Below, one piece after another: positions 30,948-63,899 of a DNA stretch of 64,000 nt. The translations under genes were made by a program, and so were the position numbers. The notes under the pieces are model-generated. The model saw nothing but the letters and a program-made list of their open reading frames with translations, was not told the DNA's origin and did no database searches. This DNA comes from Planctomycetota bacterium (GTDB lineage: Bacteria > Planctomycetota > MHYJ01 > JACQXL01), in assembly GCA_016235865.1 (NCBI GenBank), contig JACRIK010000027.1, positions 152,213-216,212 on the forward strand, given 5' to 3'. How positions within the stretch are numbered: position 1 is the first letter of the stretch; each line of letters opens with the position of its first letter.

Positions 30948-31172
30948 CCTTATATACTGTATGTTTTAGTAAGTTTACAAGAGATAGCGCCTGTCTTGAT
31001 TAGAAATGCCGTTTGTTTGTTAATCAGATGCCGGTCCTTCATCAATCAGATGCCATTTCTTTGCCTATCAAATGCCATCCCTTATATACTGTATGTTTTA
31101 GTAAGTTTACAAGGGATGGTGTCTGTTTACCAGACTGATGCCGGTTCTTTATCAATCAGATGCCATTTCTGA
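30948..31172. repeat. Two-copy direct repeat with ATCAGATGCC motifs
   Basis: A segment beginning CCTTATATACTGTATG and running through TTTTAGTAAGTTTACAAG occurs at 30948 and again at 31080, 132 bp apart. The second copy is shortened by about 22 bp. Within both, ATCAGATGCC and close variants recur five times in all. No ORF explains it. Confidence 0.75.
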
Positions 31173-41200: not shown

Positions 41201-43372
41201 ATGACAAAGATGAAATCTAGCTCAATTGGACTGATGGTCTTATTTCTGGCATATACGCTGTCCAGCGGTTGTGGCGGTTCGTCGGACAGCGGCAGTAGCG
41301 CTCCAGTAAACCGCGTCCCGATTCTGAACTCTATCGGCGATAAATCCATAGATGAAGGTCAGATACTGACCTTCACCATCAGTGCTACTGACCCGGATTC
41401 AGACACCATTATCTATTCAGCTACCGGATTGCCCACCAGTGCTGATTTCTATCCTATTACCCGGACTTTCAGCTGGATTCCGTCATACAGCCAGGCTGGC
41501 ACGCATACCGGTATCACCTTCATTGCCACTGACCCTGGCGCTCTTTATGATGAAGAAACTATCACCATCACCGTGGTCAATGTTCCGCGTGCAGTAGATG
41601 ACTATGTCTGGGTAGCAAATGATATTTCTCAGAATATAACTCATATTCTAAAATCAAGTCCTGTAATCTCGACCACGATTTCTGTAGTAGGAACTAGACC
41701 TCAAGGAGTTGCAGTAGACGAAACCTATTGCTGGATAGCTAATAGTACTAATAATGTTACTCGTATCAATAAATCAGATACGGCTATTTCGACTACGATT
41801 GAGTTGGGAGTCACTCCCAGTAGTATAGCCGTAGATGATGCTTACTGCTGGGTGGCAGCTTCAGATGACGTCGTCCGGATTTTAAAATCAAACTTAGCCA
41901 TTTCGTCCACAATTGCAGTAGGAAATCACCTCCAAGGGATTACGGTAGACGGGACATATGTCTGGGTAACAAGGGATTCTGCTGATACGGTTATTCGTAT
42001 ACTTAAATCAGATCCGGCTATTTCGACTACAATTACGGTCGCGGGGGCTAAACCTATGGGAGTCGCGGTAGATGAAAACTATTGCTGGGTAGCAAATTAT
42101 GATTTGAATAGTGTTACCAGAATATTAAAATTAGATCCGTCTATCTCGACAACTATAACGGTAGGAAATAGGCCTTTTGGAGTCGCTGTAGATGATACCT
42201 ATGTTTGGGTAACAAATTATGGTGCAGGTACAGGTAATACTGTTACGCGAATCCAGAAATCAGACACTGCTATAACAACCACGGTTGTAGTAGGATATTG
42301 TCCTCAAGGAATTTCTGTAGATGATACCTATTGCTGGGTAGCAAATTATAATAGCGCTGGCACTGTTACACGTATACAGAAATCAAATTTAATTACGACT
42401 ACAGCCATGGTGGGAAGTTGGCCAATTTCACTGGGTGACATGACTGGTTATGCCTATGATAATTATTCAATGAGAATGATGAATAATTATCTTTGGGTGG
42501 CAAATTATTATTCTTCTGTTACCTGCATAACGAAGTCTACTTCGGCCACGACCAATATTGCGGTCGGAACTAACCCCGAAGGAGTTGCAGTGGATAAGAC
42601 CTATGTTTGGGTGACAAATGTTGGCTCTAATAATGTCACCCGAATCAATAAATCAGATCTCACCACGACCACGATTGCCGTGGAAAATCGCCCCGAAGGA
42701 GTTGCAGTAGATGAGACATATTGCTGGGTGGCGAATGTGAGTTCTAATAATATCACCCGAATCAATAAATCAGACCTCACCACGACCACGATTGCCGTGG
42801 GAACTGCCCCTGCTGGAGTTGCGGTAGATAACACCTATGTCTGGGTGGCAATTAGGGGGTCTGCTGCGATAGATGGGACCGATAGTGAACCAGCTAATGT
42901 TACCCGTATCCTTAAATCAGATACCGCCATCACGACCACAATTGTTGTGGGAACAGGTCCCTATGGAGTTGCTGTAGATGGAACCTATGTCTGGGTGGCA
43001 AATGTACTTTCTGATAATGTCACCCGTATCAGGAAATCGGACTTAACCACGACCAATATTGCGGTGGGAACTGACCCAATTGGAGTTGCGGTAGATGAGA
43101 TATATGCTTGGGTGACAAATTACAATTCTCATAATGTTACCCGCATCCTAAAATCAAATCCGGTAAGTATGACCACGATTGCGGTGGGAGTACACCCTTG
43201 TGGAGTCGCAGTAGATGAAGTATATTGTTGGGTGACAAATGTGGATTCTGATAATGTTACCCGTATTAGGAAGTCGGACTTAATCACAACCGCGATTGTT
43301 GTGGGAAGCGCTCCCTATTCGCGGGGCGATATGACTGGCTATGCCTATGACCATTACGCAAAAGAACCATAA
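41201..43372 (+). CDS. Lipoprotein with Ig-like domain and two seven-bladed beta-propellers
   Basis: 723 aa. Lipobox SSGC followed by a Gly/Ser linker, then one Ig/cadherin-like domain (about 38-128; DEGQILTFTISATDPDSD). Fourteen copies of a repeat of about 40 residues follow: VDxTYxWVAN...NVTRIxKSD...TTIxVGxxPxGVA. The seventh and fourteenth copies both end with GDMTGYAYD, so the repeats divide into 7 + 7, as expected for two seven-bladed propellers. It is probably exposed on the cell surface and binds a ligand or forms part of the envelope. Copies 9 and 10 are nearly identical in DNA, showing recent repeat duplication. Confidence 0.85.
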   Translation: MTKMKSSSIGLMVLFLAYTLSSGCGGSSDSGSSAPVNRVPILNSIGDKSIDEGQILTFTISATDPDSDTIIYSATGLPTSADFYPITRTFSWIPSYSQAGTHTGITFIATDPGALYDEETITITVVNVPRAVDDYVWVANDISQNITHILKSSPVISTTISVVGTRPQGVAVDETYCWIANSTNNVTRINKSDTAISTTIELGVTPSSIAVDDAYCWVAASDDVVRILKSNLAISSTIAVGNHLQGITVDGTYVWVTRDSADTVIRILKSDPAISTTITVAGAKPMGVAVDENYCWVANYDLNSVTRILKLDPSISTTITVGNRPFGVAVDDTYVWVTNYGAGTGNTVTRIQKSDTAITTTVVVGYCPQGISVDDTYCWVANYNSAGTVTRIQKSNLITTTAMVGSWPISLGDMTGYAYDNYSMRMMNNYLWVANYYSSVTCITKSTSATTNIAVGTNPEGVAVDKTYVWVTNVGSNNVTRINKSDLTTTTIAVENRPEGVAVDETYCWVANVSSNNITRINKSDLTTTTIAVGTAPAGVAVDNTYVWVAIRGSAAIDGTDSEPANVTRILKSDTAITTTIVVGTGPYGVAVDGTYVWVANVLSDNVTRIRKSDLTTTNIAVGTDPIGVAVDEIYAWVTNYNSHNVTRILKSNPVSMTTIAVGVHPCGVAVDEVYCWVTNVDSDNVTRIRKSDLITTAIVVGSAPYSRGDMTGYAYDHYAKEP

Positions 43373-61640: not shown

Positions 61641-61669
61641 ATTATATCAGCGCGTGTTTGAGATGTCAA
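61641..61669 (-). promoter_or_regulatory. Perfect consensus sigma-70 promoter of the chaperone run
   Basis: Minus strand TTGACA (61669-61664), exactly 17 bp, TATAAT (61646-61641). No CIRCE inverted repeat (TTAGCACTC-N9-GAGTGCTAA) is present around it. Confidence 0.85.
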
Positions 61670-61718: not shown

Positions 61719-61797
61719 CCCCGTTAGAAAGTCACCTAATTACATCTATACCAATGGTATAGGTTTTATTACCCAAGGGGTGGTCTTTCTAACGGGG
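61719..61797. repeat. CCCCGTTAGAAAG palindromic element
   Basis: Left arm CCCCGTTAGAAAG (61719-61731), right arm CTTTCTAACGGGG (61785-61797), with an internal perfect palindrome CTATACC-AAT-GGTATAG (61746-61762). Termini match the element in the coding gene at 15121-15164. Confidence 0.75.
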
Positions 61798-61879
61798 CTG
61801 ACACCCCACTGGGGGAGGGGTGGGGGACACTCCCCCTCGTTATAGGGGAAACCAGGTTTATATATAGTAGGCATACCGT

Positions 61880-62125
61880 CTATCTACGGAAGAAATACAG
61901 TTCTTCCGGGAAAGTAATGCAGTTTAATAACGGAGGAAATGCAGTTTGGCAACGGCGGTAATAAAGTTTAATAACGGAAGTAGTAGAGTTTAGCAGCGAC
62001 GGTAATATAGTTTGGTAACGGAAGAAATGCAGTTTAGCAGCGTAGGAAATGCAGTTTGCCGGTGTAAGTAATACAGTTTAGCAACGTAAGAAATGCAGTT
62101 TATATAGGAAAGACATACAGTCGGG
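61880..62125. repeat. Degenerate 22-bp tandem repeat, about 11 units
   Basis: Successive 22-bp units share the core GAAATGCAGTTTA preceded by AACGGA or AGCGTA-like starts. About eleven units run without gaps, diverged at 2-8 positions each. There is no spacer between units and units are too short and variable for CRISPR. Not in an ORF. Confidence 0.85.
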
Positions 62126-62282
62126 CGGCAGGTGATATTCCCCGCGATATTTATGAATTAGGTGTTGCGTTTCCGGAAACTGCGGAACTGCGGGAATTTA
62201 TTTCGCCCTATAAGAATGCTTTTTTTCCCTTAACAGCATCAGTTGGGGTTGGTTGGTTTCCATCTCCTCTTTTCGCATGCTG

Positions 62283-62549: not shown

Positions 62550-63899
62550 CTAAGACATTAATCCGCCCCCACCCTCATCTACGGTTGCTCTGGCACTATC
62601 CCAGCCGGTCTGCCCTAAAATGCTTATTGATTTGGGAGGGTTTAATTTTCTAAACATCTTAGTTTTCGGATTACACACAATTACAAATGGACATTCCTTA
62701 AGGTTAGGAAGCAAAGGTTCCCTTCCTGAAACAAAATCCGATTGCTCAATTGCTATATATCCATCATTATCAGAACAAGGTAATACTTTATTCAGTATAT
62801 TGGCTTTGTTTTTAGTATTATTCTTAAAGCATACTTGACAAGTTTTATTCCTACCTGAATGCCATTTGAAAGTATGCTTTTTAGTTTCACATTCAAAAAT
62901 ACATAGCGACTCTTTACAAAAATCCTTTCCTATCACCTTGTAGACAAAATAATCAATTAAGCAGGGACTTTCGACACACTCGTCAGGATACTTATGATTC
63001 CAGATTTCCCATACCTTTCGCCAAGCCAACGCATTCATTTGATCTATTAAACCATATTGATAGCAAAAAATATCCAGGAAACTGCTAATCAAAATAATAT
63101 CTGTTTTTAGAATACGACTTCTTAGGGCGACCTTGGTAGTATTGATGTCACTGGCAACATCAATCTTGTCAAAATTCTTTGGATTCTTCCATACTCCTAA
63201 AACAACCATATCTCTCAAAAACATATCTGTCTTTTTATTCCCAAAACCAGACCCCCGGTTATCTATCAAAAGATTTCGCACCTTCTCAATATCATTATTG
63301 CAGAATGACAGAAAATCATAAGGTTCGATTTTATTGTCTATTAGAATTTGTGATGCGGTGATTGCGTATTTAACACGCTTGTCACTTTGGGATAATCCGG
63401 TAATTCCAATATTCTTTAAAAAATCTTCCGGATTCTGGTTGATATTTTTAATATCAAATATACTTGGGTCGTCTTTATATTTCTTAAATAGGTTCTCGAA
63501 ATCTCTTGTGCCTCTAAAATCTTGATTAGCAGAAAAATACCTTATTCGACAAACCTCTTTAGGTTTCAGAGAATAGGTATCATACAATTCAGTAAAGGGT
63601 CGTCCCTTGTACTTAACGAAAACATCATGCAACACATCAGCAACAAGGGAACATTGAGACTCGTCTACTTTCGGATTTAATATCTCTTTATGATGTTTTT
63701 CCCAAACTTTATGGAATTCTGAGAAATATGCGAATTCTTCATTATCAAGGGCTTTTGTAACTCCTAATTCCGGATAGGATTGATAAAAGAATTGATTAAT
63801 CTTTGATATAGAGCTTTGAATATCATTTAGACTAATCTCATCTTTCGCATAAGATTTAAGATCCTTTAGAAACTTTTTGAATAAATCTAATTCTTTCAT
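62550..63899 (-). CDS. Unknown protein, possible helix-hairpin-helix DNA glycosylase relative
   Basis: 449 aa, AT-rich. Middle segment NRGSGFGNKKTDMFLRDMVVLGVW resembles the hairpin of HhH-GPD glycosylases (GxGxKxAxxFL), followed by an acidic patch and a cysteine cluster (CKESLCIFEC...CQVC) reminiscent of the 4Fe-4S or zinc loop in that group. The C-terminal region looks like a small beta domain. The assignment rests on pattern alone and is tentative. Starts within the stop of the next upstream gene (ATGA overlap). A DNA-modification or repair role in an accessory operon is possible. Confidence 0.5.
   Translation of the reverse strand: MKELDLFKKFLKDLKSYAKDEISLNDIQSSISKINQFFYQSYPELGVTKALDNEEFAYFSEFHKVWEKHHKEILNPKVDESQCSLVADVLHDVFVKYKGRPFTELYDTYSLKPKEVCRIRYFSANQDFRGTRDFENLFKKYKDDPSIFDIKNINQNPEDFLKNIGITGLSQSDKRVKYAITASQILIDNKIEPYDFLSFCNNDIEKVRNLLIDNRGSGFGNKKTDMFLRDMVVLGVWKNPKNFDKIDVASDINTTKVALRSRILKTDIILISSFLDIFCYQYGLIDQMNALAWRKVWEIWNHKYPDECVESPCLIDYFVYKVIGKDFCKESLCIFECETKKHTFKWHSGRNKTCQVCFKNNTKNKANILNKVLPCSDNDGYIAIEQSDFVSGREPLLPNLKECPFVIVCNPKTKMFRKLNPPKSISILGQTGWDSARATVDEGGGGLMS

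Follow-up and report, generated by a model that had tools for sequence, protein, structure and literature searches.

What kind of element is a gap-free run of degenerate 22-bp units in a non-coding gap of a bacterial chromosome, and what holds its units at a step of two helical turns? The question is raised by a 64,000-nucleotide stretch of a Planctomycetota genome, which we call the window. The initial annotation described about eleven units in strict 22-bp phase at 61880-62125 and considered a protein-binding array, an iteron-like site and a decayed minisatellite.

A phased array between genes

The periodicity of the window array is not a product of chance. Identity at a lag of 22 is 0.615 over 61850-62136, while the maximum over periods of 10-60 in 1,000 first-order Markov simulations averages 0.34 and is always at or below 0.42. 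The units can be written as rows in a single phase and without a gap, and 12 of them exceed 50% identity to the consensus, in good agreement with the first description. The array lies where it had been placed, but its true extent is slightly wider, and its conserved core (Table 1) takes the place of the shared unit GAAATGCAGTTTA proposed initially. TRF recovers the array with 0-1% indels, and nine copies of an 88-nt repeat within it are all spaced by 22. Over 61860-62130, identity is 0.63 at a lag of 22, 0.67 at 44 and 0.62 at 66; the slightly higher value at 44 than at 22 means that adjacent units alternate somewhat.

Three simple explanations had been set aside in the annotation, and each stays excluded. 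A coding repeat is rejected since no ORF of at least 60 aa overlaps 61763-62197. An Rfam search of the array returned no known RNA family. The units follow one another without gaps and are alike along most of their 22 bp, which differs from the identical repeats and unique spacers of CRISPR.

The neighbours of the array are groEL, a zinc-ribbon ORF and a 449-aa ORF (62550-63899, minus strand) whose protein has no Pfam match. A perfect sigma-70 consensus promoter (TTGACA-17-TATAAT; 61641-61669, minus strand) precedes groEL, approximately 200 bp from the array. Among the closest relatives of this GroEL, at 50-55% identity, many carry the names Planctomycetota or Phycisphaerae, which makes that phylum likely. 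A second, weaker array of another unit family was found elsewhere in the window, next to a ligA gene identified by Pfam. Its lag-22 identity is 0.62 in the period scan, and its copies are spaced by 22, 22 and 88, with an additional 132-bp (6 x 22) repeat. TRF also reports two runs of 117-bp repeats at 42546-43307; since 117 is a multiple of three, these probably encode a repeat protein.

Table 1. Positions of the element, its parts and the second array in the window.
Feature	Position	Strand	Basis
Family A whole element, 344 bp (leader, 22-bp array and tail)	61797..62140	+	Alignment of three copies
G-tract leader (GGGGGAGGGGTGGGGG ... CTCCCCC), adjoining the array	61798..61856	+	Conservation across copies
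22-bp array, twelve degenerate units in one phase, core AATRCAGTTT	61872..62135	+	TRF, row alignment, repeat spacing, simulations
Last partial unit and tail	62114..62140	+	Alike in all three copies (alignment)
Weaker 22-bp array, the second in the window, from a different unit family; lies between ligA and a convergent ORF	30968..31170	.	Period scan

The array as the body of a dispersed element

Far from being a local oddity, the window array forms the body of a non-coding element, here called family A, that is dispersed in the genome. The search for other copies of the unit that the annotation had suggested found two more in the genome, at G000:C12 (88%) and G000:C3 (89%), and the flanks of the three copies are mutually unrelated in the alignment. 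The window and C12 copies are 89.2% identical over 344 columns with no gap, and the C3 copy is shorter by 110 bp, which is exactly 5 units. Conservation is uneven along the element. The leader has no differences from the C12 copy in 59 positions, compared with 37 in 281 for the rest of the element (p=0.0009), and differs from the C3 copy at 2 of 59. The family A sequence is absent from all 58 relatives searched. Immediately before the element, at 61719-61797, there is an inverted repeat with perfect 13-nt arms (CCCCGTTAGAAAG); it has a 77% copy at G000:C19 and looks like a separate REP-like unit.

A genome-wide class with a locked pitch

A second array adjoins the C12 copy of family A. Its 22-bp unit is unrelated and belongs to a family of its own with seven elements, and for this reason a period scan was run without regard to sequence. 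The sample of the own genome comprised 802 kb, that is, 40 stretches, most of them taken at rough intervals along the contigs, and the window. Arrays covered over more than 80% of their length by an ORF of at least 150 aa were treated as coding and removed before the counts (19 in the own genome, four of them with a 21-bp and two with a 22-bp step, and 3 in G005). Those of the own sample are mostly of 30 bp or other multiples of three, and some of the arrays removed are probably open by chance. Arrays fetched as matches to families A or B are included in the family, folding and column analyses; the pitch and gene-context counts are made without them.

The scan placed the window array in a genome-wide class whose members repeat at exactly 22 bp, with a sister set at 21 bp. 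Of the 28 non-coding arrays in the own sample, 19 have a 22-bp step, 7 a 21-bp step and the remaining 2 a 10-bp step. All 15 non-coding arrays of G005, from the same order, have one of the two pitches (12 of 22 bp, 3 of 21 bp), as do all three of G003, from the same family (2 and 1). The pooled count for the three genomes is 44 of 46. The comparison of 26/28, 15/15 and 3/3 with 0/11 non-coding arrays in 80 named control loci (1.19 Mb) gives p=4e-10. Members of the class lie between genes and have about 8-20 degenerate units each. Outside the window, 24 arrays of 21 or 22 bp were found in 738 kb, which extrapolates to approximately 87 per genome; at a typical length of about 340 bp, the class would occupy about 1% of the genome.

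The sequences are far less uniform than the pitch. By unit sequence, the 43 arrays of 22 bp form 27 families, and the elements themselves come in small groups of diverged copies with unrelated genes as neighbours. Identity among the units of an array spans from 0.99 (L213, a contig beginning inside the array) down to about 0.6.

Anatomy, gene context and mode of change

Runs of at least five G or C are found at the edge of 18/19 and 11/12 arrays (29/31), against 26/83 and 26/70 array-free gaps. Convergent gene pairs flank 10 of 27 arrays and 22 of 153 gaps (p=0.011); this count covers the 27 arrays of 22 bp, out of 31, that have genes called on either side, the gene calls being the longest ORFs and not the output of a gene finder. 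The neighbouring genes have no common function by eye, and Pfam was checked for eight window and flank proteins.

Within the unit, the columns are uneven. In 39 arrays with at least 7 units, one part of the unit is conserved and another varies; the conserved columns lie in clusters (mean lag-1 autocorrelation 0.145, against an expected -0.048) and column conservation is overdispersed 2.4 times. A common motif is weak: a CATAYCC-like word reaches 5.14 bits, against 4.50 +/- 0.17 in column-permuted controls, in which dinucleotides are also destroyed. A half-step of 11 bp is rejected because no such sub-period is found in the 22-bp arrays, and a dyad binding site is rejected with 2 of 41 22-bp units at p<0.05.

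Arrays change by substitution and by whole units, and hardly ever by phase-breaking indels. In 40 arrays, which span 11,242 bp and depart 2,395 times from their consensus, each of the 13 phase jumps is within 50 bp of an end of the detected stretch. This count does not include L210 or three arrays, L040 among them, in which fewer than 6 units pass, and it comes from a detection requiring a fixed lag, which favours indel-free arrays. The copy at C33 (L040) has an interior phase break. Between close paralogs of an element, at 87-90% identity, the alignment needs 0-2 small gaps, and where units have been lost the lengths differ by multiples of 22 (110, 66+44 and 176).

Distribution among relatives

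The class is patchy within the order. According to the annotation, random spacers without periodicity in related genomes would speak against the array. The answer is a partial one: arrays of the same pitch are present in G003 and G005, and none was found in six other sampled genomes. In the 240 kb of readable sequence from these six (G001, G002, G004, G006, G007 and G008), where the density in the own genome predicts about 8 arrays, there are no arrays of 21 or 22 bp. These six assemblies are fragmented and two contigs of the own genome, L197 and L213, begin inside an array, so that loss during assembly may contribute to this absence.

Among 23 genomes of the taxonomic class, 3 of 30 loci fetched with a 15-base G-tract pattern lie beside a 22-bp array, all in G003; the pattern has no match in the window's own genome. 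The 15 loci fetched from the 27 matches of this one pattern in G010 contain no 22-bp array, and neither does the site of a family B match in G008. Stretches located 3' of B elements (L076:8163-8230 and L041:4270-4336) recur in G008 without an array, and the latter precedes a methylase gene. Carriage of the arrays by viruses or plasmids was also considered, and the two leaders and the unit pattern tried had no match in viral_contigs, phages and plasmids.

What sets the pitch

Tandem repeats normally share sequence or nothing. Dozens of unrelated arrays in one genome that have only a two-turn step in common call either for a spacing-sensing protein or for an enzyme copying DNA in two-turn steps; to our knowledge, both would be new. 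Since unrelated units have one pitch, the pitch appears to be set from outside the sequence, either by a coating protein or by a duplicating enzyme. The retention of phase in old arrays and the site-plus-spacer pattern of the columns favour the former. The latter fits the gain and loss of units, the presence of homogeneous, recent arrays and the fact that the array evolves faster than the leader. In its general form, the idea is that the element is defined by its geometry, with letters free and the two-turn pitch held by one protein or enzyme of the lineage that measures along one face of the DNA. We regard this as quite possible, if rather doubtful.

The protein-binding array of the initial annotation stays the leading reading among those weighed, as a putative assignment drawn from the pitch. 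We propose, tentatively and with somewhat less than even confidence, that the arrays are phased binding platforms for a putative DNA-coating protein that responds to spacing more than to sequence. Such a protein, or family of proteins, of this lineage would bind the arrays cooperatively, with a protomer or dimer for every two turns of the helix, always on the same face of the DNA. It would read the spacing and a partial site instead of a fixed word, and the G tract may be a border or a loading point. The likely role would be structural, or that of a boundary at the ends of genes. Here, we infer the protein from the pitch and the role from the place.

The pitch lock, the 27 sequence families, the keeping of phase, the length changes by multiples of 22, the clustered and overdispersed columns, the G/C runs at the edges and the excess of convergent pairs count for the binding platform. 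Several observations argue against it. No candidate binding protein was found, and a sequence-specific binder could hardly serve 27 unit families. Conservation is higher in the leader than in the array, which looks like the less constrained part, and shared ancestry of the units can also give clustered, overdispersed columns. The weak motif, the lack of a 22-bp dyad and of an 11-bp sub-period, the patchiness and the break in L040 also weigh against it. If the proposal is true, arrays defined by geometry would be a sequence-independent way to mark or fold the chromosome at gene ends. If the pitch is selected, they would be a ready-made set of natural sequence variants in which to study recognition by spacing alone.

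The main rival is that the arrays are selfish, minisatellite-like elements without host function, generated in two-turn steps by a lineage-specific enzyme or replication error and spread by copying. We consider this somewhat unlikely, though it accounts for the families of diverged copies beside unrelated genes, for changes of length in whole units and for the range of unit identity, which makes amplification look recent in some arrays. Avoidance of coding DNA and the more frequent convergent gaps are also expected of inert DNA. Against it stand old arrays with about 60% unit identity that are still in phase and the clustering of conserved columns. The enzyme searches count against it as well: the RVT_1 reverse transcriptase is found in none of G000, G003 and G005, on which arrays made by reverse transcription are rejected, and the Y1 transposase (two in the own genome) occurs in all but one of the 9 genomes of the order, also where no array was seen. 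The decayed minisatellite of the annotation, in its plain form, leaves the shared pitch of nearly all non-coding arrays and the kept phase unexplained.

An RNA-level role is unlikely. In this reading, transcripts from gene ends would carry the arrays as repeated sites for a protein, as C-rich sites for loading Rho or as terminator-like structure, which suits the location of the arrays at gene 3' ends and in convergent pairs. Some arrays do fold better than column-permuted controls (z of -3.8 for L065, -3.5 for L056 and -3.3 for L210), but the mean z over 43 arrays is only -0.60 and -0.59, alike on both strands, and the window array has +1.4 and +0.1 and no Rfam match. With folding barely above the controls, a few families excepted, an array of RNA hairpins is rejected as the general common denominator.

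An iteron or a centromere-like site serving replication or partition is very improbable: tandem 22-bp direct repeats are known from plasmids and one array (L203:11033-11378) lies 98 bp from a parB gene, but its sister L046 is located elsewhere, the many sequence families and the estimated number per genome do not suit the few sites of one sequence expected of an origin, and unrelated arrays lie beside groEL, ligA and other ordinary housekeeping genes, with no rep gene among the neighbours of the window array.

Comparison with known systems

Direct or tandem repeats or iterons of 22 bp are reportedly present in the Lactococcus lactis IL594 plasmids (PMC3138775) and in the Chlamydia pecorum plasmid (PMC4748734). 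The arrays described here have many sites, many unit sequences and no replication gene beside them. Plasmid repeats of the same length, which are direct, in phase and non-coding like the arrays, function at plasmid origins, typically at one site per replicon beside a replication gene. In bacterial VNTRs and minisatellites, unit length varies from locus to locus. The arrays share their gain and loss of units (paralogs differ by whole units) but not the free unit length. MITE and REP-like elements are small, non-coding and dispersed as diverged copies. The arrays are likewise dispersed with unrelated flanks, but their body is a tandem array, and neither a terminal inverted repeat nor a target-site duplication was seen by eye across the three family A copies.

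The tandem repeats of Borgs resemble the arrays in part. They are described as many arrays per genome, partly intergenic, with nearly all units unique (PMC9879509). The large number, the diverse unit sequences and the intergenic sites are shared. Borg units are perfect, of mixed length, A-rich and located in ORFs in about half of the cases (PMC9879509), whereas the arrays here are degenerate, of 21 or 22 bp, intergenic and edged with G/C tracts. The open-access literature searched, including PMC9879509 and PMC4060949, gave no description of such a class. We file the arrays under dispersed tandem-repeat elements, as a variant. Each of the kinds compared, from plasmid iterons and CRISPR to Borg repeats, VNTRs and MITE/REP elements, appears to differ from them in a defining feature.

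The sister arrays of 21 bp

The 21-bp arrays are possibly a second class. Their units are enriched in dyads, with 5 of 18 at p<0.05 and 9 of 18 at p<=0.1. They often adjoin a 22-bp array (L039, L040, L042 and L046), and L211 also holds a 21-bp array. The genome also has a selenocysteine tRNA, at L046:17852-17944.
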